From positions 1 to 64,000 of the forward strand of contig CAJOEI010000003.1 of assembly GCA_905233465.1 (NCBI GenBank): DNA of 64,000 nucleotides. The letters run 5' to 3'. The stretch comes from an uncultured Bacteroidaceae bacterium. Lineage in GTDB: Bacteria; Bacteroidota; Bacteroidia; Bacteroidales; Bacteroidaceae. Shown piece after piece: positions 5,874 through 43,991 of the stretch; within the stretch, counting starts at the first letter, position 1, and each line of letters opens with the position of its first letter. Made by a program: the position numbers and the translations under genes. The notes under the pieces were generated by a model that was given only the letters and a program-made list of their open reading frames with translations, did not search any database and was not told the DNA's origin.

Positions 5874-6610
5874 GCCTGAAACTGTTCGAATCCGTGTTTC
5901 TCGATCTCTGTGGCAAGCTCTGGTCCGCCAGTGCGTACTATGCGTCCGTCTATGAGCACATGCACCTTGTCTGGATGCAGATAGTCCAACAGGCGCTGGT
6001 AGTGTGTGATGACAATGGCCGATGTCTCAGGCTTGCGCAGACGGTTGAAGCCTTCAGCCACCACGCGCAGCGCATCGACGTCCAGACCCGAATCGGTCTC
6101 GTCGAGGATGCAGAATGATGGTTCGAGCATAGCCATCTGGAAAATCTCGTTGCGCTTCTTCTCTCCTCCGCTGAAGCCCTCGTTTACAGAGCGTGATGTC
6201 AGCCGGCTATCCAGTTCCACCAGTTTGCGACGTTCGCGCATCAACTTGAGGAAAGCTCCGGCATCGAGGGGCTCCAACCCTTGGTGCTTGCGCTTGGCAT
6301 TGAGTGCCGTTCGCAGGAAGTTGACCATCGAGACACCAGGTATTTCCACTGGTTGCTGGAATGAGAGGAAGATACCCTCGTTGGCTCGTTCGTCAGGTGG
6401 CAACGCCAGCAGGTCGCGGCCGTTGTATGTCACCGAACCCTCGGTGACGGTGTATGCAGGATGTCCAACCAGGACGTTGGAGAGAGTCGATTTACCGGCT
6501 CCGTTGTGTCCCATCAGAGCGTGCACTTCACCGTCGCCAATTGTCAGGTCTATACCCTTTAATATCTCTTTGCCGGCAACGGTGGCATGTAGATTTCTGA
6601 TTTCAAGCAT
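5870..6610 (-). CDS. sufC: Fe-S cluster assembly ATPase SufC
   Basis: ABC ATPase: Walker A GHNGAGKST, signature NEGFSGGEKKRNEI, LDETDSGLDVDAL; 4-nt overlap with sufD. Confidence 0.95.
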   Translation of the reverse strand: MLEIRNLHATVAGKEILKGIDLTIGDGEVHALMGHNGAGKSTLSNVLVGHPAYTVTEGSVTYNGRDLLALPPDERANEGIFLSFQQPVEIPGVSMVNFLRTALNAKRKHQGLEPLDAGAFLKLMRERRKLVELDSRLTSRSVNEGFSGGEKKRNEIFQMAMLEPSFCILDETDSGLDVDALRVVAEGFNRLRKPETSAIVITHYQRLLDYLHPDKVHVLIDGRIVRTGGPELATEIEKHGFEQFQA

Positions 6611-6639
6611 TTCAGATGATTGTCATTGGTTTTGCGGCG

Positions 6640-6647
6640 CAAAGGTA
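6640..6647 (-). promoter_or_regulatory. Candidate -7 box (TACCTTTG) for sufCD
   Basis: TAnnTTTG consensus followed by CGCC, 30 nt upstream of sufC. Confidence 0.5.
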
Positions 6648-6721
6648 ATGAAAAACGCTGCTTTTTGCCACGCTGAACGGGAAAAAGTGGGATGTTTGTT
6701 GGGAGTATTAACAATTCTTTG

Positions 6722-6729
6722 TACTTTTG
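6722..6729 (+). promoter_or_regulatory. Candidate -7 box (TACTTTTG) for the thioredoxin-like gene
   Basis: TACTTTTGTGCCC about 42 nt upstream of ATG 6771. Confidence 0.5.
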
Positions 6730-6770
6730 TGCCCGCAAAACTCAATCTTACAACTCTCATCTTTTGACGT

Positions 6771-7892
6771 ATGAAAAAATTTATCTCCATCGTGGTCATT
6801 GTGATTGTTGCTGCAATGACATTCAACTGCACCAAGGCTAAGGGCTATACTATCAAGGGAACTGTCGTGGGTGCCGCTGACGGCGACACCGTAAGTCTCA
6901 TTGAGGGCCGAGGCAATGAGATGGAAGTGCTGGCTAATGCAGTGGTTAAGAACGGCAAGTTCACCATCACCGGCGAGCAGGACTCCACGCGTCTGCTTTT
7001 CCTATCCTATGTAAGCAACGATATGCAGCGCAATGCCACGGCATCGTTGTTCGTGGAGAATGCCGAGATTCTCGTAACATTGAATCCAGACTCAGCTGTT
7101 GCTGACGTGCGCGGCACACATGCTAACGAGATATGGACGGCTTTTGCCCGCCACAACGAGCAGCGCTCCAGCGTGGGCATGAAGGCTTTCTATGCCAGCA
7201 TCGATACAGCAGCTACGCCCGAAGCACGCAAGGCTGCCAAGGAACAATTGGATGCTATTGAGGCCGAGCTCACGGATTTCTATAAGGATTTCATCCAGAC
7301 CAATCGCGATAATGTCGTAGGACAGTTTGTGCTTGCCAGCTATGCTGAGCAGCTTGAGGACGAAGACTTTGTCAAGGCTCAGCTCGACGCAATAGACATG
7401 CAGAAGGCTATTCCTGCCGTTCGCAGGCTCAAACAACTTAAAGATATTCAGGCTGAGACCGCCGTTGGAAAGCCTTACAAAGACATTACTGCCGAGACTC
7501 CAGGTACGGAGATTCTCAGCGTGAGCAACTTCGTAGGCCGTCAGGGTGTGAAGCTCCTGATGATAGATTTTTGGGCCAGCTGGTGTGGTCCATGCCGTGC
7601 TGAGATGCCCAATGTGAAGGCTGTTTATGAGCGTTTCCACTCTCAGGGCCTTGAGATTCTCGGCGTGAGCCTTGACAACGACGAGGACGACTGGCGTGAA
7701 GCCATTGACCAGATGGATATGACCTGGCCTCAGATCTCTGACCTCTGTGGTTGGGAGAGTGCCGGTGCAGCAGCTTATGGCGTGCGTGCCATACCTGCAA
7801 CGGTGTTAATTAAGGACGGAATCATCGTTGCGCGCAATGTACGCGGTGCGGAGCTTGCAAAGAAGGTCGAAGAACTGCTGCAACAAGATTGA
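6771..7892 (+). CDS. TlpA-family thioredoxin-like lipoprotein with DUF4369-type N-terminus
   Basis: Signal peptide; FWASWCGPCRAEMPNVKAVYERF redox motif; N-terminal GYTIKGTVVGAADGDTVSLIE. Confidence 0.88.
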   Translation: MKKFISIVVIVIVAAMTFNCTKAKGYTIKGTVVGAADGDTVSLIEGRGNEMEVLANAVVKNGKFTITGEQDSTRLLFLSYVSNDMQRNATASLFVENAEILVTLNPDSAVADVRGTHANEIWTAFARHNEQRSSVGMKAFYASIDTAATPEARKAAKEQLDAIEAELTDFYKDFIQTNRDNVVGQFVLASYAEQLEDEDFVKAQLDAIDMQKAIPAVRRLKQLKDIQAETAVGKPYKDITAETPGTEILSVSNFVGRQGVKLLMIDFWASWCGPCRAEMPNVKAVYERFHSQGLEILGVSLDNDEDDWREAIDQMDMTWPQISDLCGWESAGAAAYGVRAIPATVLIKDGIIVARNVRGAELAKKVEELLQQD

Positions 7893-9145
7893 CAACATCC
7901 GAATTCATCAGCACGCATAAAACAGACGACGTCCATCGGTTGGCTCTTTCCAAGCCTCCGGCGGGCGTCGACCTGCATTATGCCCTGCAGCAGATTGAAG
8001 GCTGGCAGTTGGCTTGCAGCAAGCTGCCCACATGGGCTGCGACCGACGACATAAAGTATCCGCCACGGATAGCGCTTGAACAATGCTCAAGCGAAGCGAC
8101 GGCTCAATACAAGACACGGTTGCTGGGTGACGCAGCCCCTCCCCCGACCCCTCCCCTGTTAGGGAGGGGAGCCTTCTGCAATGCTTTTGCTGACCTCACG
8201 GGAGGTTTAGGCGTGGATTTCATGGCGCTTGCTCCATGCTTTGGTGTTGCAACGTATGTCGACAGACAGACGATTTTGGTTGATGCGGCGCGTCACAACG
8301 CTTCTCAGCTGTTAGGTGGCGCAACTATGGAACGCCTCAATTTCGTTTGTGCCACAGCAGAAGATTATTTACGTGAAATGGAGCCTGTCGACGTGCTCTA
8401 TTTGGATCCTGCACGGCGCGATGCAACCGGACGTAAGGTGGCTCTCATTGCAGACTGCAGTCCTGATGTAGCTCTACTGCATGATTTGTTGATGCAACGT
8501 TCACGCCGATGCATCATCAAGCTGTCTCCGATGCTTGATATTACGGCTGCCCTGAGCGTTTTGCCAGCAGCCGTTGAGGTGCATGTAGTGAGCGTTGACG
8601 GGGAGTGTAAGGAAGTGATAGTTGTGCTTGACAGGGAGCATCATGATATCGTCATCCACTGTGCAATGATATCAAAGGGGGGAGGTCGGGAGGTGGCTCT
8701 TTTCAGTTTTACACCTGCCGAGGAAGCTGTCTCGTCGCCGTTGCTTGCAGACGGGATAGACGAGTACGTCTACGAACCAGATGCGGCGTTGCTCAAGGCT
8801 GGTGCCTTTCGCAGTGTGGCATTGCGTTATGGCCTGCTCAAGCTGGCAACTGATACACATCTATATACTTCATCTGCACTACTGCCAGAGTTCCCAGGCC
8901 GCTGTTGGCGTGTGGTGGGGCATTGTGGGTTTGGTAAGCGAGAATTGCGCTCCATGCTTGCTGGTGTGCGTTCAGCGGAGATTGGTGTTCGTGGCTTTCC
9001 TGGCAGCGTAGCCAGCCTGAGACGTCAGCTGCACTTGTCTGACGGTCCAGATGCCCATCTCATCGCCACTACACTCGCCGATGGCAGCCATCGCTTGTTA
9101 CGTGTTGAGCTTGTGCAAAAAAGCTCCGCCGCACTGTGTGTATGA
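7889..9145 (+). CDS. SAM-dependent methyltransferase with THUMP-like domain
   Basis: FADLTGGLGVDFMAL SAM site, DVLYLDPARRD motif; contains the in-frame repeat-derived peptide APPPTPPLLGRG. Confidence 0.8.
   Translation: MTTSEFISTHKTDDVHRLALSKPPAGVDLHYALQQIEGWQLACSKLPTWAATDDIKYPPRIALEQCSSEATAQYKTRLLGDAAPPPTPPLLGRGAFCNAFADLTGGLGVDFMALAPCFGVATYVDRQTILVDAARHNASQLLGGATMERLNFVCATAEDYLREMEPVDVLYLDPARRDATGRKVALIADCSPDVALLHDLLMQRSRRCIIKLSPMLDITAALSVLPAAVEVHVVSVDGECKEVIVVLDREHHDIVIHCAMISKGGGREVALFSFTPAEEAVSSPLLADGIDEYVYEPDAALLKAGAFRSVALRYGLLKLATDTHLYTSSALLPEFPGRCWRVVGHCGFGKRELRSMLAGVRSAEIGVRGFPGSVASLRRQLHLSDGPDAHLIATTLADGSHRLLRVELVQKSSAALCV
8137..8170. repeat. GC-rich palindromic repeat copy inside the methyltransferase CDS
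   Basis: cccctcccccgacccctcccctgttagggagggg; shares CCCCTCCCCTGTTAGGGAGGGG with about 580-601 and, inverted, about 36597-36625. Confidence 0.8.
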
Positions 9146-9186: not shown

Positions 9187-9411
9187 CTATTCGTCCCAGT
9201 GGAAGTCCCAGAGGTCATTGCCGTCCTGTTGTTCCTTGACACGTGCAGGCAGGTCGGCTCCATCACCATATTCGAAGCCGGCATTGCCGTCAACAGTGAT
9301 ATTGCTTGTGACGAGTATGGAGCTGTACGTTGAAGGTAAGATGACACATGTCATCGGTCGTTTGTATGTTTTCATAATGTTCATGTCGTTCTGCTCTTGG
9401 TCCCTCTTCAT
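9187..9411 (-). CDS. Small MKTY-type protein, 74 aa
   Basis: MKRDQEQNDMNIMKTYKRPMTCV...NDLWDFHWDE; ATGA overlap with the upstream secreted-protein gene. Confidence 0.6.
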   Translation of the reverse strand: MKRDQEQNDMNIMKTYKRPMTCVILPSTYSSILVTSNITVDGNAGFEYGDGADLPARVKEQQDGNDLWDFHWDE

Positions 9412-12400
9412 TTAACTACCATTTTCTTTTTGTTGACGATGTAGATGCCGCGTTGTAATTTGTCATTTACCATTTGTCCGGCGAGGTTATAGCAATTGTC
9501 AGATTGTAAATTGTCAAATTGTCCAATCGTATTGATGCCAGTGGTGGTGTCGTCGAAGTTGAGGACAAATGTATTTACGTTGGCTGCTCCTTCGTTGATA
9601 TGGAAATATGCCCTGAAAGCGTTGACCTTATATCCTTGTGCAGAAGGCCAATGCAGGCGATTGTCAGCAGCGACATACAGGTTGGACTTGTCTCCGCTGG
9701 GTAATGGGGTGGGGGAGTAAGTACCCTGGAAGGAGACAGTGGCGTCAACGCTGGTAACGGCTGTGGCGGGGGCGTCAGATAGTGTTACGTTGGTGAACGA
9801 TGGGTTGACAATGTCGTCGCCAGCAGTCCATTTAATTATGTACGGCACACCGGCTTCAATAGTTGTGGCATCTTTGAAGTTGAGATACAGTGTGTTTCCT
9901 TCGATGCCGGTGGTGTGTCCGTTGTATGTGCCGTTGATGTCGAGTTGCTTGAGTGCTGCTGGTGCGAGCTGCGCCTGGACCTGTTCTGCTGTCATGCTGA
10001 ATGGCAGGCAGATGGTGTTCCAACTGTTGTCCTTGTAGAGTGTGCGGCCTTGCAGAGTGACGTTGGCGAGCACTTGATAGGCATTGTTGATGGTTGTGGC
10101 ATTGTCTGAATTGTCAAGCAGTGTGACGCTGGCGGGTGTGACATCGTTGGAGTACTGATACTTGAAAGTTACAACTACTGGATGGTGGTCGCCGAGCGGC
10201 GTATTGTCGTCATTGGCTCCGCCATTGAGTGCGTTGACATAGCCGTAGGTGTAGTCCTGTTCAATGCGGAAGGTCTGTGGTGTGAGCCGAACGGTGTTAG
10301 CGGCAGTGGGGTTGATGTAGATAATCTTATCCACAATCTCGTACTTGGAGTAGTCTGTTGGGTCGGTGGCATCAGTGAGGTCGCTCATGTCGGTTGTCGG
10401 ATATATGCCTCCCCGATAGAACTCTACCCATACATCACTCATGGTAAGGTTGCTGCTGAGTCGGTTCTTGAAATGCGAGATTATGTCTTCGCGTGTCCAT
10501 CTGCTGTTGGTGTCGCCGATGATGAGTTTTGCACGGCTGAGGTCGCTTGCATTGATGGCATCGCAGAGTTGCTCCCACTGAGCGTGGCGTGACCATGTGG
10601 CATTGGTGTCGCCAGCATCCATGTGAAGTATATATACGTCGATGACAATACCTCCTTGCAGCGTCATGTCGTAGTGGCGGAAGCCCTTCTCTACGTATTG
10701 GTTGCCATCTGTTGATTCTGTGGAGTTCCAGCGTGTCCAACTTTCGTTGGAGGCTCCGAAGCTGTTCTTCCAGATGAGGTTCAGGCCGTCGGTCTCAACG
10801 TGGAGATTTCCTTTTATTAGTTCTCCATAGTCGAGTCCGCCGACGCTAAGTGTCTTTCTAATTGTGCCGCAGGAATAGTTGTCATTGAGATACTCCATGA
10901 GGGATCCGTTGTAGTTGAAGTCTTCGGAGCAACCGATAAAGTCATAGTTTTTTGAAGCGAGGTACTGACTTATCTTGAGCGTGCCTTCGGCTCCAGGCCC
11001 GTCGGGGTTCAGTTCATACTTACCAACAACATAATTGATTTCCTTTGGCAGACCATCAACGTTGAGTGCCACGCATGTGAAGGTGCCTTCCGTGACATTT
11101 CGGTATGGCATTATCACAAGTGTGGCATTATCAGCACTTGTCTTGAAGTATGTGCGGCCTACAGGCAGTGTCATCGTGCGTGTGGGGGTAGAGCCTGTGG
11201 CGGAGGCGCAGGGAACGTTGCCATTGGTTGTGTAGATGAGTTCGTTGAGCGGGCCGATGAGCTGGTATTCGGTGTTGTAGTCCACGTCGTAGTAGTACCA
11301 CTGGCCTGCGATTAGCTTTGTCCCGTTGTTGGGCAGACGCACAGCAACGCCATCGAGATACAGTGAACGGCAGTGCAGCTGCACGTCGTCTAACTTGAAG
11401 AAGGTTTGAGTTTCACCTTCATGACCTCCCACCCACCATCGTCCGGTGCTCTCACACGTAATAGTGAGTTGACCGTCGGTGATGATGGTACCTGACGTGT
11501 TGACGCGGATGCCCGTGCCGTCGCCTTGTCCGTTTTGTGTCACGGTGTTGTTATTGGCGGAAAGTGTTACGGTGCGGCCTTCCCATGCGGCTACAACGCC
11601 TGACACCTCATACTCGCCTGCAGGCAAATCGCTGATGGTCTGGCTGACGCTGAGCGACGGTGCCCACCACTGGTAGGCATTCATCAGATAGCTGCCGTCC
11701 TTGTTCGTCATACCGTAATCACCGCGAACCATGAACTCATTGTTGCTATCTTCTTTACCACTGAGCGTCCATCCTGTATCGTCACCTGTCTCAAATGATG
11801 GGTTCTGCACATGCCATGTTGCATCGCTGTTGCTGATAGTTTGTTGTAGGCTGAGTAGATTGGCACGGCTGATGCGCCACAGCCGATAGTGCCCAGCCTC
11901 GTCACCCGTGGTGTTGCGGCGGTTCAGTGCTATTGGCTCATTGGCCTCCACACGGTTGTTCCACGGACCCATGTAGCCACATGCCCAGTTGTCGGATGAA
12001 ATGGGGTATTTGCCGTTCTCGAAGAGCCAATAGCCGTTCTGGTATGTCGGTTTGAGATAGCACCAGTCGGACATTGTGGGCTCGGTGTATGTGAGTACAT
12101 ACATATATCCCGCGTTGTCGTGTGTCTGGAAGAGGCTTGTATGCAGCACTACGTTGCGCAGACCTATGTACTCATTCTCCTTCTCTATGGTGAAGAAGTT
12201 CGATAGGTCGGTGACAGGGTCACCAGCTTGACGGTAGCGTAGGGCCTTTGTGTCCTCACCAGCCCATCCGGGTTTTGCCTCGTAACGGCCAATACCGACA
12301 AAGAGTTGTGTGTTTTCAGCAGCCGTGATGAGGTAGCACTGTTGCGGGTCGGCAATGATACCGTCTTCGGATGTCACTTCTGTGAACCCTCGAGCTGTAT

Positions 12401-12488
12401 TGACATAGGTCGTATAGTCTGTAGCTAAGGTAGACAATGTGGCGGTCAGTATGGCAAACGAAAGTGTAAATAGATGTAAGATACGCAT
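9408..12488 (-). CDS. Secreted endonuclease/exonuclease/phosphatase-superfamily protein with sorting-like C-terminus
   Basis: Start at MRILHLFTLSFAILTATLSTLA signal peptide. EEP-like motifs VALNVDGLP, HMDAGD, GDTNSRW, DHHPVVV. C-terminus NLAGQMVNDKLQRGIYIVNKKKMVVK. Confidence 0.75.
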   Translation of the reverse strand: MRILHLFTLSFAILTATLSTLATDYTTYVNTARGFTEVTSEDGIIADPQQCYLITAAENTQLFVGIGRYEAKPGWAGEDTKALRYRQAGDPVTDLSNFFTIEKENEYIGLRNVVLHTSLFQTHDNAGYMYVLTYTEPTMSDWCYLKPTYQNGYWLFENGKYPISSDNWACGYMGPWNNRVEANEPIALNRRNTTGDEAGHYRLWRISRANLLSLQQTISNSDATWHVQNPSFETGDDTGWTLSGKEDSNNEFMVRGDYGMTNKDGSYLMNAYQWWAPSLSVSQTISDLPAGEYEVSGVVAAWEGRTVTLSANNNTVTQNGQGDGTGIRVNTSGTIITDGQLTITCESTGRWWVGGHEGETQTFFKLDDVQLHCRSLYLDGVAVRLPNNGTKLIAGQWYYYDVDYNTEYQLIGPLNELIYTTNGNVPCASATGSTPTRTMTLPVGRTYFKTSADNATLVIMPYRNVTEGTFTCVALNVDGLPKEINYVVGKYELNPDGPGAEGTLKISQYLASKNYDFIGCSEDFNYNGSLMEYLNDNYSCGTIRKTLSVGGLDYGELIKGNLHVETDGLNLIWKNSFGASNESWTRWNSTESTDGNQYVEKGFRHYDMTLQGGIVIDVYILHMDAGDTNATWSRHAQWEQLCDAINASDLSRAKLIIGDTNSRWTREDIISHFKNRLSSNLTMSDVWVEFYRGGIYPTTDMSDLTDATDPTDYSKYEIVDKIIYINPTAANTVRLTPQTFRIEQDYTYGYVNALNGGANDDNTPLGDHHPVVVTFKYQYSNDVTPASVTLLDNSDNATTINNAYQVLANVTLQGRTLYKDNSWNTICLPFSMTAEQVQAQLAPAALKQLDINGTYNGHTTGIEGNTLYLNFKDATTIEAGVPYIIKWTAGDDIVNPSFTNVTLSDAPATAVTSVDATVSFQGTYSPTPLPSGDKSNLYVAADNRLHWPSAQGYKVNAFRAYFHINEGAANVNTFVLNFDDTTTGINTIGQFDNLQSDNCYNLAGQMVNDKLQRGIYIVNKKKMVVK

Positions 12489-16751: not shown

Positions 16752-17738
16752 CTATAGTGTGTACTGTGCATTGAAAAGGAAACTCGGAGCTGAGACATGA
16801 TACTTGGCGTATGCCACATCCAACTTGAACCGTTTAAGTTTCACTCCGGCACCGAAGCACAGCCCCGCTCCATGACTGCTACCGGCAGCCTTCATCTCGT
16901 ATGCTCTACGGAAGTTGAAGCCAGCAGAGATGTATAGTTGTTCTATGGGCAGGATGTCCAATCCTATGGCAAAGTGATTTGTCAGCTTGCGGCCAAAGCC
17001 CACTGTGCCCTTGCTGCTATAGAAGTCGGAGTCGCGCCAGCGTGTAAGGTCTGTAAGTGTCATAGTGAACTGAAGCGGAGCACTTTCAAGACGCTTGGTG
17101 ATGCCTGCCCGCAGGTCAAATGGCAGCCGCTCATGGTGGTCGCCAAAGCGATGCACCTGGCCGCCGAGATTGGCCGCCACCAATGAAACAGACAGGTCGC
17201 GTTGTTCGTTGTAGGCATTCAGGCCGAGGTCCACGGCTAATGCTACTGAGCTAAATTCGCCATAGTGGGAATATATGAACTTACCTGTGGCACCTCCCGC
17301 CAAATACTCTGTCAGTGTATAGGAATATCCGCCTGAGATGGCCATGTCTAAGGCTGAGAAGTCACCCATCTCAATGCCTTCTACGGTGGTCTCACGCAGT
17401 GTGCCATAGCCCACAAACTGCACGCCGACACCCCAAGTGCCCCGTTCACCCGAAGCCATCACCCACGATGCTGAGCCAGACTTACAGCCACGCATATATG
17501 TCAGGAAACTGAGGTTGAGGCTGCGGTCGCTTACGTTGGACATCAAGGCCGGGTTCTGCATCAGCAGTGAGGCATCGTCATCAGTAAGAGAGACATTCTG
17601 CCCGCCCAGCGCCATCCCGTGTGCAGATGTTGGCAACTCCAGGAAATTAAATACCGACGTACTCTGCGTCTGTCCGCGTCCTGCAAGAGTCGCTGACAGA
17701 AGAAAGACAGTGTAGAGTATCGTGCGTTTGATGTTCAT
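16752..17738 (-). CDS. porQ: Type IX secretion system protein PorQ
   Basis: FNFLELPTSAHGMALGGQNVSLTDDDASLLMQNPAL; linked to cmk and ispH. Start set at MNIKRTIL, downstream of a -7 box. Confidence 0.88.
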   Translation of the reverse strand: MNIKRTILYTVFLLSATLAGRGQTQSTSVFNFLELPTSAHGMALGGQNVSLTDDDASLLMQNPALMSNVSDRSLNLSFLTYMRGCKSGSASWVMASGERGTWGVGVQFVGYGTLRETTVEGIEMGDFSALDMAISGGYSYTLTEYLAGGATGKFIYSHYGEFSSVALAVDLGLNAYNEQRDLSVSLVAANLGGQVHRFGDHHERLPFDLRAGITKRLESAPLQFTMTLTDLTRWRDSDFYSSKGTVGFGRKLTNHFAIGLDILPIEQLYISAGFNFRRAYEMKAAGSSHGAGLCFGAGVKLKRFKLDVAYAKYHVSAPSFLFNAQYTL

Positions 17739-17753
17739 TGTCGTAATTGCGTG

Positions 17754-17761
17754 CAAAGATA
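17754..17761 (-). promoter_or_regulatory. Candidate -7 box (TATCTTTG) for porQ
   Basis: TAnnTTTGC 16 nt upstream of 17738. Confidence 0.5.
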
Positions 17762-17888
17762 CATAATAATTCATTATATTAACGAACGAAAAGGGCGTTT
17801 TGAGGTGTAGGATGTGCTTTTTTTGAAAAAAAACAACGTATTCTTAAAAAAAAAGTCGCAAAGAAATCGTGTTATCGAAAATTTGTGC

Positions 17889-39042: not shown

Positions 39043-39267
39043 ATGGCAGAGTATACAATTATTATTGAACACGACCCTGTGACGGGGCTTTATTGCGGAC
39101 AATGTCAGCAATTGCCAGAAGCAATCTCTCAAGGCACTACAGAAGGTGAGTTGATGGACAACATCCGTGAGGCCATAGAGCTTGTACTTGAAGACAGGGC
39201 AGAGAACATCAGACGACTCTACACTGGCCGTCACATAACACGTCGCCGTATTGCCGTTAATGCATGA
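39043..39267 (+). CDS. hicB: HicB-like antitoxin, short
   Basis: EYTIIIEHDPVTGLYCGQCQQLPEAISQGTTEGELMDNIREAIELVLED. Confidence 0.82.
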   Translation: MAEYTIIIEHDPVTGLYCGQCQQLPEAISQGTTEGELMDNIREAIELVLEDRAENIRRLYTGRHITRRRIAVNA

Positions 39268-39461
39268 AGAAAGAGAAATTCCTACGTTTCCTGCGAGACA
39301 ACCATTGCATCCCCACTGGACGGCAGAAAGGCAGTCATGCGCAGTTTCAGAATCAGACCAATGGCAACAAGACCATTGTACCTATGCATAACGACATAGC
39401 TGAGCCGACAGCTCGTGCAATCTGCAAGCAATTAGGTATTCCGCCCGTAAAATTCAATTAA
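39264..39461 (+). CDS. hicA: HicA-like mRNA interferase toxin
   Basis: FLRFLRDNHCIPTGRQKGSHAQFQN...KTIVPMHNDIAEPTARAICKQLGI; overlaps hicB by 4 nt. Confidence 0.85.
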   Translation: MKKEKFLRFLRDNHCIPTGRQKGSHAQFQNQTNGNKTIVPMHNDIAEPTARAICKQLGIPPVKFN

Positions 39462-39603
39462 TATTTATCGCACATACATCACAGTAGCAGCTGCAACACT
39501 CGTTGCAGCTGCTGCATAATATATTAGTTGAATCTTGCTATAGTTCAAGAATCATAGAACCTGAATTGTCAATTGTCCATTGTCAATTTTCAATTCTCTA
39601 TTA

Positions 39604-39804
39604 TTACTTGCTCCAGTCGTCATCCCATACGTTGTAGGATGACTGGCTGCCGTTATCACCCTTGACCATAGCTTCGCCAGTGGCATTGGCGTTATAGAAC
39701 GTGGCACTACCCGAAGCACCATTAGCTGTGAGCGAACCAGCGATGACCATTTGTTGCTGCACAGCCACCATCATGGTCATAGGAATAATATATGTCTTTT
39801 TCAT
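39604..39804 (-). CDS. Small MKKTY-type protein, 66 aa
   Basis: MKKTYIIPMTMMVAVQQQMVIAGSLTANGA...YNVWDDDWSK; ATGA overlap with the upstream secreted-protein gene. Confidence 0.65.
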   Translation of the reverse strand: MKKTYIIPMTMMVAVQQQMVIAGSLTANGASGSATFYNANATGEAMVKGDNGSQSSYNVWDDDWSK

Positions 39805-42800
39805 TTTACCAATACTTTTTTACCGTTAATAATATTGATGCCCTTCTGCATCTTGCTCAGGCGCTGACCTGCGAGGTTGTAAATGACGTTGGACATTGAA
39901 CATTGACCATTGACCATTGAACTGTCCTCATTGTCAATTGAGCGAATGCCATCCACAACAGCATCTAAGTCTATATTGAAGAACTCCTTTACATCTACAC
40001 CGCTCTCACTCTTCAAGATGCTGATGTATGCGCGGTTCTTGGCAACGGTTTTACCATTAGCTTTGTAGAAACCAATATTATCGTTAACCTTGTTCAGAAT
40101 ATAGTTATAGTTCGTTCCATCGTCCGTAGCTACTGTTGCACCAGTGCCTTTCACGAACTTGTTGCTAGTAACTGTTTCTGCACCAGTACCATCAAAGACA
40201 GGAATTTCCTCGGTCTTTGCTCCAGTACTATTATATATAAGAACACCAGTGTTAGCAGGGACCTTATTCACCTGAGTGAATGTTACACCTGTACCATTGC
40301 CTTTGGTAATAGCGATATAAGCGTTAATGTCATTATCTGTGAAGTCAAGAGGACTGTCGCTTGCATAAGTAGCGAAACCAGAAGCGTCAGAAATCTTAAC
40401 GACTTCAGCAAGTTTGGTCATTTCATCTGTGTTCTTAAGACCTTTAGTCGTAATATAGCCCGTAATATCTGCTTTTACTACGACCTTAGCAACACCAATA
40501 AAATGAGGATTATTCTGCACATTAAAGTTATCACGAATTGAACCCGAAGGTAGCTGGACAGCCACAGTATTATCAACATCGTCTTCATCTGGGTCATCCG
40601 CGATTGCTAAGTTCGTATTAGAATCTCCATTTCTTCCGAAATTACTCTTAGATCCACTTTTATAACTTCCAACGATATAACCTATTACATATTTTCCGGT
40701 TCCTTCTGCACCATTCTTCACCTCTGCTACAGTATAAGGATGAGCGGCTGTACCTGGAGCAGCAGTTACAGTAACTGTGCAGGAAGCATAGATGGAAGCA
40801 TTTTCGGTAGACTTAACTGTGATGGTTGCTTCACCAACGGCAACGCCAGTCACGACACCGTTTGCATCAACGGTGGCAATGGAAGTATTGCCCGATTCCC
40901 AAGTAACGTTCTTGTTCGTTGCGTTATTGGGGGATACGGTAGCAGTGAGTGTCGTTGTCTCACCAACATTCACAGATGCTGTGGCATTATTTACACTGAC
41001 GCCTGTCACGGCAACCGTATTCACGGTAATACTGTAGGTCGTGGTCTTGGTTGTTCCTTTGTGAGTATAAGAAACCGTGACAGTCTGCACACCTGCAGTG
41101 TTCATATTATAGCCTGTAAATGTTGCTTGACTTGTAACATCTGCGTTAGTTTCGTCATTGAATGTTGCCGTTACTGTCATGCCCTCATGCGAGAATGCAT
41201 CACCCACGTTGAATGTGGTAGGATAGGTGCCGCTCAGAGCGATAGACTCAAGTGCAGCGGGAGCCTTAACGGTAATGCTGTATGTTGTCGTCTTCTCAAC
41301 AGCATTCTCTGTATAACTGACTGTAACTGTTTTTATGCCTGTAGAAGACATGTCTGGTGTGCTGAAGGTAGCGCTGCTCGTAACAACAGCCTCAGAAGCA
41401 TCGTCATATGTAGCCGTTACCACTGCTCCCTCATGTGAGAAGGCGTCGTTAGTCTCGAACACGGTGGGATATGTACCAGAAACTGCGATAGAAGAGAGAG
41501 TCTTTTGCTTTTCGAGAGTTACCTCAGCACTACTAATAAAGCAATTTCCACTCAATGAAAATTCAACGCTCGTTGCCAAACCAGACCACGTTTTCCCATT
41601 CAGCGTTCCACTATTTACAGAAGGGGCATTCCATGTGTTGTTTCCACCAGTAGTGAAGGTGATTCCTTTTATATCATAACCCGAGGGGGCTGCAAACGTA
41701 ATAGTACTTCCATTATATACACGAATGTAGTCACCATCTCCACGAGGACGTGTGTTTGTACCATCGGTAATTGTCACTGTGACATTATCCTGAGATTTTA
41801 CAACAGGCAAAGCCCCTGAGTTAAGATTTCCTCCATTAGAAGACCCCAACCATTCATAGTTCATATTGAACGTTACGCTTGTTGGCTGAACATATTCGTT
41901 CACTGTAATTGCCTGTGTGGTTGTTTTGGTGACAGCGTTTTCAGTATAGCTTACAGTGATTGCTGTATTGCTTGTTGAGAGAGCAGTGGATGTAGAAGGG
42001 CTATATGTGCAGGAAGCCGTAACATCATCTGTAGTAGCGTCAGAATAGTTAGCCGTCACTACCATTCCTGTGGGATCAAATGTCTCCCCTTCAGTATAGG
42101 TTGTTTTAGTAGGTGCAGTTGTAATAGCAATACTACTCAAGGCGGGGTTTGTAACAGTAATGGTAGCCGTTGCTTCACCAGCGTTATAAGTGCCAGTTGC
42201 AGCCTGCTCTGCCTTTACGGTTACGCTACCTGCTGCAATGGCGGTTAGCGTGCTGCTTGAAAGAGTAGCATAGCTGCCTCCATCTGTTATGGTGTACGTA
42301 ACTGCCCCCGTGCTATTACTTTCGAAAAGCGTGCTGAGGTTAAGAGTTTTACCTATGCGTACGTTTCCATTGCTGAAAGTGATTGTAGGATCTACCTTGG
42401 CTGCAGTTTCCTCTTCTGTATTTACGCCCCAAAATACAGCGCGTTCACTATTGGCTGTTATAGTAATTGTAGCTGATGAAGTCAACGCTGTCGAAAGTGT
42501 AATTACTTTATAATAATTTGTCGTAGCATTTGCAGGTGTGGATAGAGTAAATGTTGTAGATGAACCGCTTATTCCATCATCTGCTGTTAAGGATTCTGCG
42601 TTAAGCAGCGTTGTCGAACCATTCTTGACAGTTAAAGTAGGGGATTTTCCATTCCAAGCTGCAATATGTATGTGAATGTATTTCGTTCCACTTGGAGCTG
42701 TAATCGTAGCGGATCCTCCGGAACCGCTCTTTCCCAGTTTTATACCATCATATTCAGTTCCGCTTGAGGAAAGCTTTACTTTACAAGTATTTACATTTGT

Positions 42801-42944
42801 TCCAGAAGTGGGAAGCGTGACATTGCTGGTATAAACGGCAGACTTGTCGCTTTGTCCCCACACACTTCCTGTTCCGAGGGAACACAATAAGGCTACGAGG
42901 AGGGCGATGCGTAGCCGGATTGAATTAAGTAAATTTTGTTTCAT
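39801..42944 (-). CDS. Large secreted protein with tandem bacterial Ig-like domains and sorting-like C-terminus
   Basis: Signal peptide; repeated SIAxSGTYPT...GxxFxxxGxxVTAxYxDxxxxxVT...VTVSYTENAVxKTTTxxITV; Big_2-like VSPNNATNKNVTWESGNTSIATVDANGVVTGVAVGEATITV; C-term NLAGQRLSKMQKGINIINGKKVLVK. Confidence 0.82.
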   Translation of the reverse strand: MKQNLLNSIRLRIALLVALLCSLGTGSVWGQSDKSAVYTSNVTLPTSGTNVNTCKVKLSSSGTEYDGIKLGKSGSGGSATITAPSGTKYIHIHIAAWNGKSPTLTVKNGSTTLLNAESLTADDGISGSSTTFTLSTPANATTNYYKVITLSTALTSSATITITANSERAVFWGVNTEEETAAKVDPTITFSNGNVRIGKTLNLSTLFESNSTGAVTYTITDGGSYATLSSSTLTAIAAGSVTVKAEQAATGTYNAGEATATITVTNPALSSIAITTAPTKTTYTEGETFDPTGMVVTANYSDATTDDVTASCTYSPSTSTALSTSNTAITVSYTENAVTKTTTQAITVNEYVQPTSVTFNMNYEWLGSSNGGNLNSGALPVVKSQDNVTVTITDGTNTRPRGDGDYIRVYNGSTITFAAPSGYDIKGITFTTGGNNTWNAPSVNSGTLNGKTWSGLATSVEFSLSGNCFISSAEVTLEKQKTLSSIAVSGTYPTVFETNDAFSHEGAVVTATYDDASEAVVTSSATFSTPDMSSTGIKTVTVSYTENAVEKTTTYSITVKAPAALESIALSGTYPTTFNVGDAFSHEGMTVTATFNDETNADVTSQATFTGYNMNTAGVQTVTVSYTHKGTTKTTTYSITVNTVAVTGVSVNNATASVNVGETTTLTATVSPNNATNKNVTWESGNTSIATVDANGVVTGVAVGEATITVKSTENASIYASCTVTVTAAPGTAAHPYTVAEVKNGAEGTGKYVIGYIVGSYKSGSKSNFGRNGDSNTNLAIADDPDEDDVDNTVAVQLPSGSIRDNFNVQNNPHFIGVAKVVVKADITGYITTKGLKNTDEMTKLAEVVKISDASGFATYASDSPLDFTDNDINAYIAITKGNGTGVTFTQVNKVPANTGVLIYNSTGAKTEEIPVFDGTGAETVTSNKFVKGTGATVATDDGTNYNYILNKVNDNIGFYKANGKTVAKNRAYISILKSESGVDVKEFFNIDLDAVVDGIRSIDNEDSSMVNGQCSMSNVIYNLAGQRLSKMQKGINIINGKKVLVK

Positions 42945-43497: not shown

Positions 43498-43932
43498 TTA
43501 GAAGAAATTGAAGAAGAAGAACACTGCTGCCCATGTTCGGGGCACGCCCTTGGCGCTGCCCATGCTGCTGTTGTTGCGGTCGCGCACGGTGCCGTCGCTC
43601 TCTATGCGTCCGATGGTGGAGTTGTTGCGGTCGCGCACGGTGCCGTTACTCTCTACGCGTCCGATGGTGGAGTTGTTGCGGTCGCGTATGGTGCCGTCGC
43701 TCTCTATGCGTCCGATGGATGAGTTATTTCGGTCGCGTATGGTGCCGTTACTCTCTATGCGTCCGATGGTGGAGTTGTTGCGGTCGCGCACGATGCCGTT
43801 ACTCTCTATGCGTGCAACTTGTGAGTTGTTGGCGTTGCGGATATCCTGGGCCCGGGGAGAAGGGGATGCGGCGGACATGGATATGGAAATAATAAATAAT
43901 AAATAATAAATGATAAATAAGCGACTCTTCAT
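43498..43932 (-). CDS. Secreted repeat protein, beta-flower-like
   Basis: MKSRLFIIYYLLFIISISMSA signal, then five 17-aa repeats RIESNGTVRDRNNSTIG. Confidence 0.7.
   Translation of the reverse strand: MKSRLFIIYYLLFIISISMSAASPSPRAQDIRNANNSQVARIESNGIVRDRNNSTIGRIESNGTIRDRNNSSIGRIESDGTIRDRNNSTIGRVESNGTVRDRNNSTIGRIESDGTVRDRNNSSMGSAKGVPRTWAAVFFFFNFF
43558..43812. repeat. 51-bp coding tandem repeat, 5 copies
   Basis: Near-identical 17-codon units ctctatgcgtccgatggtggagttgttgcggtcgcgcacggtgccgt. Confidence 0.9.
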
Positions 43933-43991
43933 AATCAATTTTACGATTTGGTTCGACAGGCTCACCATAAATCAACTTTAAACTTTAAACT

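Follow-up and report, generated by a model that had tools for sequence, protein, structure and literature searches.

Linear polyphosphorylated peptides (LPPs) were described in 2026 by Popov et al. as a class that is restricted to Bacillota and whose role is unknown (PMC13381572). The LPP leader has the consensus YxxPxVLxHQxIxFETxxS, with a serine at Tyr+18, and cutting of LppA between FET and AQS leaves a core that begins with AQS and is phosphorylated on S3 (PMC13381572). The YxxP motif is essential to binding of LPP and lasso-peptide leaders by the RRE (PMC13381572). For type IX secretion in P. intermedia, the part of the published account that is available (PMC11969387) describes short CTDs of 40-51 residues that are cut at PT/GI, carry GxR and GxY or GxN motifs, and have a basic end or KK. 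Searches of the open-access literature found no paper that links RiPPs with type IX secretion, and none that describes in Bacteroidota the small-protein family considered here. A member of this family, encoded immediately behind a secreted protein of an uncultured Bacteroidaceae bacterium, is likely to give rise to a RiPP-type peptide that functions in the manner of the Bacillota LPPs.

The gene pair and its recurrence

The window, meaning the whole stretch of 64,000 nucleotides that was analysed, encodes on its minus strand a secreted protein of 1047 residues (39801-42944) and a small protein of 66 residues (39604-39804; MKKTYIIPMT...YNVWDDDWSK), which belongs to a family of 95 distinct members and is a predicted RiPP-type precursor. 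The stop codon of the larger gene and the start codon of the smaller share an ATGA (39801-39804, minus strand), as the first-pass annotation had reported. By inspection the larger protein, hereafter the cargo, has a signal peptide at its N-terminus, and the bacterial Ig-like repeats previously ascribed to its middle were recovered as Pfam matches to Big_3 and Big_2, together with DUF6359. The C-terminal module comprises an unnamed beta domain (residues 843-997; 39954-40418, minus strand), recognized from AlphaFold2 and from its association with the small ORF, and a tail of 49 residues (39804-39950, minus strand) with the pattern GIRS...GQR...GIN...GKKVLVK and the sequence IYNLAGQR..KGINIINGKKVLVK.

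Other features lie close to the pair. Adjoining the cargo gene, a secreted-looking protein of 156 residues made of tandem repeats (RDRNNSTIGRIESNGT) is encoded at 43498-43968 (minus strand). Two small overlapping ORFs of 74 and 65 residues (39043-39461, plus strand) converge on the small precursor gene; by appearance they resemble a toxin-antitoxin pair of the HicB/HicA type, and they had no NCBIfam match at E 1e-5. A short interspersed repeat (TTGTCAATTGTCCATTGTCAATT-like) is located between genes at 39560-39600, and a related stretch at 39885-39950 apparently codes for the disordered linker that precedes the short CTD (SSMVNGQCSMSN); repeat-like linkers are also present in other paralogues.

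The pair had been regarded as one of two modules in the window with the same architecture, the same ATGA overlap and different cargo. For the other module, copy A, a second cargo of the same kind (9408-12488, minus strand; domain/tail profile match at 9411-9788, E=4.5e-37) and a small protein (9187-9375, minus strand; MKTYKRPMTC...WDFHWDE; small-protein profile, E=1.5e-18) do form a pair, but 32 nt separate the cargo stop codon from the conserved MKTYKRP start, and an ATGA overlap results only if an upstream ATG is used. Searches of the source genome yielded 10 matches with the small protein as query and 15 with its profile. Besides the pair at 39604-42944, 13 members of the small family (copy A and the L073/L099 pair included) immediately follow a cargo gene of this kind; one match (L013) is an orphan that has lost its start region, and one (L016) is spurious. 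Of 38 loci in named assemblies that have the YNVWDD motif, 35 have such a gene just upstream, and at the other three the upstream gene is absent from the stretch examined. Among the 35 is a locus of Xylanibacter brevis ATCC 19188, a rumen strain in culture, where 18 nt separate the cargo gene from the small ORF (L056). The small-protein profile matches 91 of 151 Bacteroidaceae genomes, and outside this family the sole sampled genome of the order that it matches (G113) again has the small genes behind cargo genes. The architecture does recur with different cargo, as the first-pass annotation had held.

The cargo families are very varied, with little conservation from one species to another. When 80 congeners were searched with the cargo of the window, no close orthologue was found, and 12 C-terminal matches with loci were obtained; behind each of the 12 lies an intact small ORF, the gap ranging from -1 to 164 nt. 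This search was blind to the small ORF. The earlier view that the small protein belongs to a conserved unit holds. The pairing of cargo and small ORF is real and widespread, beyond chance. Coupling by ATGA, which had been put forward as a shared trait, is an incidental local detail: the genes overlap in 3 of 78 pairs, and the median gap is 38 nt. At one locus (L026), two tandem YxxP small ORFs follow a single cargo gene, with gaps of 14 and 208 nt.

PorQ (16752-17774, minus strand; NF033711, E=1.2e-109) and a PorE-family protein (NF052230, E=0) are encoded within the window, and both NCBIfam matches agree with the earlier suggestion of a type IX secretion system. SprA was not found in the source assembly, which is 85% complete, and is present in 9 of 12 congeners tested; G166, a near-complete congener with many predicted precursors and an RRE, has no SprA match. 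A type IX system in the source organism is likely.

The tail, and the beta domain with its small partner

By its sequence, the tail of the cargo is a known type IX short CTD, resembling those of P. intermedia in length, in the GI cut site, and in the GxR, GxN and KK motifs, as far as the available part of that account describes them (PMC11969387). The first-pass annotation had proposed that this tail and the small protein are the conserved unit. Approximately 65 genes of the source genome end in such a tail, most of them without a small partner; among the best 30 of these matches, a small ORF follows 13 of the 14 genes that have the full preceding domain and 1 of the 16 others. The profile of domain and tail was built partly from paired loci, so the congener search that was independent of the small ORF carries more weight. 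The small partner goes with the unnamed beta domain that precedes the tail, not with the tail. Locus L110 has the usual domain and small ORF and a different C-terminal tail (GGKIVIVNNGVKYSANGQKLN), which is possibly a second sorting tail.

The beta domain has no Pfam family. AlphaFold2 modelled the C-terminal module of 205 residues with a mean pLDDT of 87.3, including a disordered linker (156-175) before the short CTD, and the tail itself as a few short strands after this linker. Comparison of the domain with the PDB by Foldseek gave nothing below E=0.4, and the best match by VIA-align had a Z of 3.8 over 68 residues; because neither is a clear match to a solved fold, no fold is claimed.

Distances among the small proteins of the source genome are uncorrelated with those among their domains (mirror-tree, r=-0.09), so that nothing points to a one-to-one match of each peptide with its domain. 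This absence of sequence covariation, like the diversity of the cargo families and their slight conservation between species, would suit a pairing without joint function, in which a peptide family with a role of its own hitch-hikes beside a mobile C-terminal module. Such hitch-hiking is judged unlikely, since a single class of domain is paired among many tail-bearing genes, since the pairing persists with short gaps across several genera and one other family, and since the only orphan seen (L013) is the one without its start region.

The small protein and its candidate enzymes

The small proteins have no family in Pfam or NCBIfam. The 95 members begin with MKKxYxxP, in which the proline is present in 95 of 95 and the tyrosine in 94 of 95; in the small protein of the window, this motif (YIIP; 39781-39792, minus strand) is the predicted site of RRE binding. 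According to the logo of the family, YxxP is followed by strand-like alternating hydrophobic residues and then by [I/L]-A-x-S. A serine occurs at Tyr+19 in 69 members and at Tyr+20 in 17 more (86 of 95 at these two positions), and nine members have no serine at Tyr+18 to +20. A-x-S is the commonest pattern at the predicted cut, with IAQS in some members. From this logo and the LPP cut site FET|AQS, the leader is predicted to be residues 1-21 (MKKTYIIPMTMMVAVQQQMVI; 39742-39804, minus strand), although the cut site is extrapolated because HQ and FET are missing from these leaders. The predicted core (residues 22-66; 39607-39741, minus strand) ends in YNVWDDDWSK; its third residue, Ser24 (39733-39735, minus strand), matches S3 of LppA in position and is the predicted site of phosphorylation. 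The C-terminus of the family is acidic, with tryptophan among the last 12 residues in 90 of 95 members. Three members are matched weakly by the NCBIfam model lasso_cyano (E=0.025). AlphaFold2 gave the small protein no compact fold (mean pLDDT 64.7). The YxxP motif and the conserved serine make a RiPP-type precursor the most fitting reading of the small protein, which is probably not an unmodified subunit.

Two other routes of export were considered for the small protein and rejected: Sec, as inspection revealed no signal-like hydrophobic stretch, and a double-glycine leader for a C39 transporter, as no GG is conserved.

The source genome has one gene for a discrete RRE (PqqD; C13:46631-46900), beside which are an HprK-like gene and an S24/S26 or SpI-like gene, an arrangement that is conserved in congeners; 11 of 12 congeners have one or two PqqD genes. 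Across 11-22 cassettes, residues that are expected to be important are conserved in all three proteins: the P-loop APSGTGKST and an Asp pair of the kinase, the Ser, His and Asp of the peptidase (SMRPF, VLHRI, GDGN), and in the RRE an Asn and an Asp that are leader contacts in LppB. The RRE profile aligns with TfuB1 (6jx3, E=1.6e-5) and with LppB (9x8z, E=0.047), matching N33 and D70 of the latter, but scores TfuB1 above LppB, and its hosts are Bacteroidota, not Bacillota. The cassette of the source genome has no precursor, NTP transferase or exporter adjacent to it, the predicted precursors being dispersed.

In most RRE cassettes, a conserved secreted protein of approximately 150 residues and of no known family precedes the kinase (L153, 10401-10889, minus strand, with matching genes in L154, L156, L174, L175 and L177); such a protein is also encoded beside the RRE gene of the source genome. 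A second type of RRE cassette adjoins SprA in L172 (G224:C6) and L173 (G200:C8); by inspection, an ORF resembling an ABC exporter accompanies the first and one resembling an NTP transferase the second.

The predicted precursors co-occur with the RRE. With an RRE counted at E at most 1e-20 and precursors counted as present when a genome has two or more, 65 of the 151 genomes have both, 3 have precursors only, 42 have the RRE only and 41 have neither (p=1.9e-10, kinship ignored); the three exceptional genomes without a strong RRE are incomplete assemblies (86-94%). The corresponding counts for SprA and any precursor are 84, 7, 32 and 28 (p=6.6e-8, kinship ignored), and among SprA-positive genomes only, RRE and precursor are still associated (p=0.0012, kinship ignored). 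Some genera possess the RRE and SprA and have no match to the small-protein profile.

Physical linkage was found in six SprA-negative genomes outside the genus of the source organism (G169, G187, G212, G281, G292, G303), in which a homologue of the precursor lies less than 7 kb from the RRE on the same strand, beside the RRE and not beside a type IX cargo. Six of 10 matches with E below 0.01 are linked to an RRE, for which the chance is approximately 0.4% each (p about 1e-12). Locus L212 encodes in a row HprK, SpI (TIGR02228, E=2.2e-7), PqqD, NTP_transf_5 (E=1.9e-34), an ABC exporter and a YxxP peptide and is, by gene content, a complete LPP-type cluster. In the type IX-positive genome G183, the trio of RRE, kinase and peptidase adjoins a pair of cargo and predicted precursor.

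Loci L207, L208, L209 and L211 are located in polysaccharide-export (exopolysaccharide) loci. In each of these four, the gene for the YxxP peptide is followed by one for a large secreted fimbrillin-like protein, and the C-termini of the fimbrillin-like proteins (NSWDK, GNVWD, GNVWK) resemble those of the peptides. In L210, near an RRE and a YxxP peptide, an ORF of 683 residues (6171-8223, reverse-complement coordinates) has SpI-like motifs at its start and an end like the ATPase of an ABC transporter, and may be a peptidase-exporter fusion.

The steady adjacency of the small gene to the cargo gene, their occasional overlap, and the small ORF behind all 12 unbiased matches to the domain could also be accounted for by an unmodified escort, chaperone or subunit that binds the C-terminal region of the cargo, with the tail or domain as its ligand. 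Such a partner, having no visible signal peptide, would have to act in the cytosol, is not modelled with a compact fold, and leaves the conservation from YxxP to the serine without a reason, and homologues of the small protein adjoin RRE genes in genomes without SprA; this alternative appears quite improbable. The idea that the small proteins are lasso-peptide precursors served by trans-acting lasso machinery draws on the YxxP leader with its discrete RRE, the weak lasso_cyano matches and the closeness of TfuB1, a lasso RRE, among solved structures, and is very improbable, given that the source genome has no B2 protease for lasso leaders (PF13471) and the 12 congeners give one sub-threshold match, that PqqD-B2 pairs of the lasso type do turn up in G018 and G019, and that a SpI-like protease adjoins the RRE in place of B2. 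The absence of B2 from the source genome speaks for linear products.

The proposed pathway and its relation to known systems

In the proposed pathway for an LPP-like precursor, the YxxP leader would dock as a beta strand on the stand-alone RRE (the PqqD protein), the HprK-like kinase encoded beside the RRE would phosphorylate the conserved serine (Ser24), and the archaeal-type signal-peptidase-like protease, also encoded beside the RRE, would remove the leader just before A-x-S (before A22). Cleavage would free an acidic core of approximately 45 residues with a WDDDW-type end, and these steps are predicted from the biochemistry of LPPs. The core would then be exported, and the mature peptide may act in the envelope on or with its cargo. 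As the precursor gene is just behind the gene for a type IX cargo, every cargo that has the beta domain can be produced along with a peptide of its own. The working idea is that at the envelope the peptide joins the cargo or decorates it, because in Bacillota with LPPs, in the SprA-negative relatives and in type IX-positive Prevotella, the peptides sit with genes for surface polysaccharide or surface protein. A wider proposal, in which the phosphorylated RiPP-type peptide is the dedicated partner of a type IX surface protein, meets its own cargo at the envelope and possibly joins that cargo to surface polysaccharide, such that RiPP maturation and type IX secretion are one surface-assembly pathway across Prevotella-like Bacteroidota, is tentative and rather doubtful.

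An LPP-like family with its trio of enzymes in a majority of the Bacteroidaceae sampled, beside genes for surface proteins, would extend the class to another phylum. The pairing with surface-protein genes would tie LPP-like peptides to a concrete partner and make their purpose testable, and small ORFs that no family library names gain a predicted identity.

Compared to the short-CTD cargo of P. intermedia, a subset of the cargo here differs in having the extra beta domain and a paired precursor peptide; the available part of the P. intermedia account makes no mention of small partners (PMC11969387). A [Y/W]xxP leader that a discrete RRE recognizes is shared with paeninodin-type and other lasso peptides, as are accessory genes for an HprK-like kinase and for an NTP transferase, whereas no B2 leader protease above the family cut-off was found in the genus. 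The closest likeness is to LPPs, in which a YxxP leader is likewise followed at a similar distance (within 1-2 residues) by a serine, with A-x-S at the predicted cut, and a discrete RRE, an HprK-like kinase and an archaeal-type SpI peptidase are likewise encoded together; in the SprA-negative relatives, the likeness extends further to NTP_transf_5 and an ABC exporter, both in L212, and to a location in capsule or exopolysaccharide loci. The spacing and the final serine match those of LPPs but the inner leader consensus (HQ, FET) is absent, and therefore the family is called LPP-like and is not filed as LPP. Unlike the LPPs of Bacillota, these predicted peptides belong to Bacteroidota, in which up to approximately 20 precursors are dispersed in a genome, each 3' of a type IX cargo gene, and the machinery is encoded once, elsewhere.
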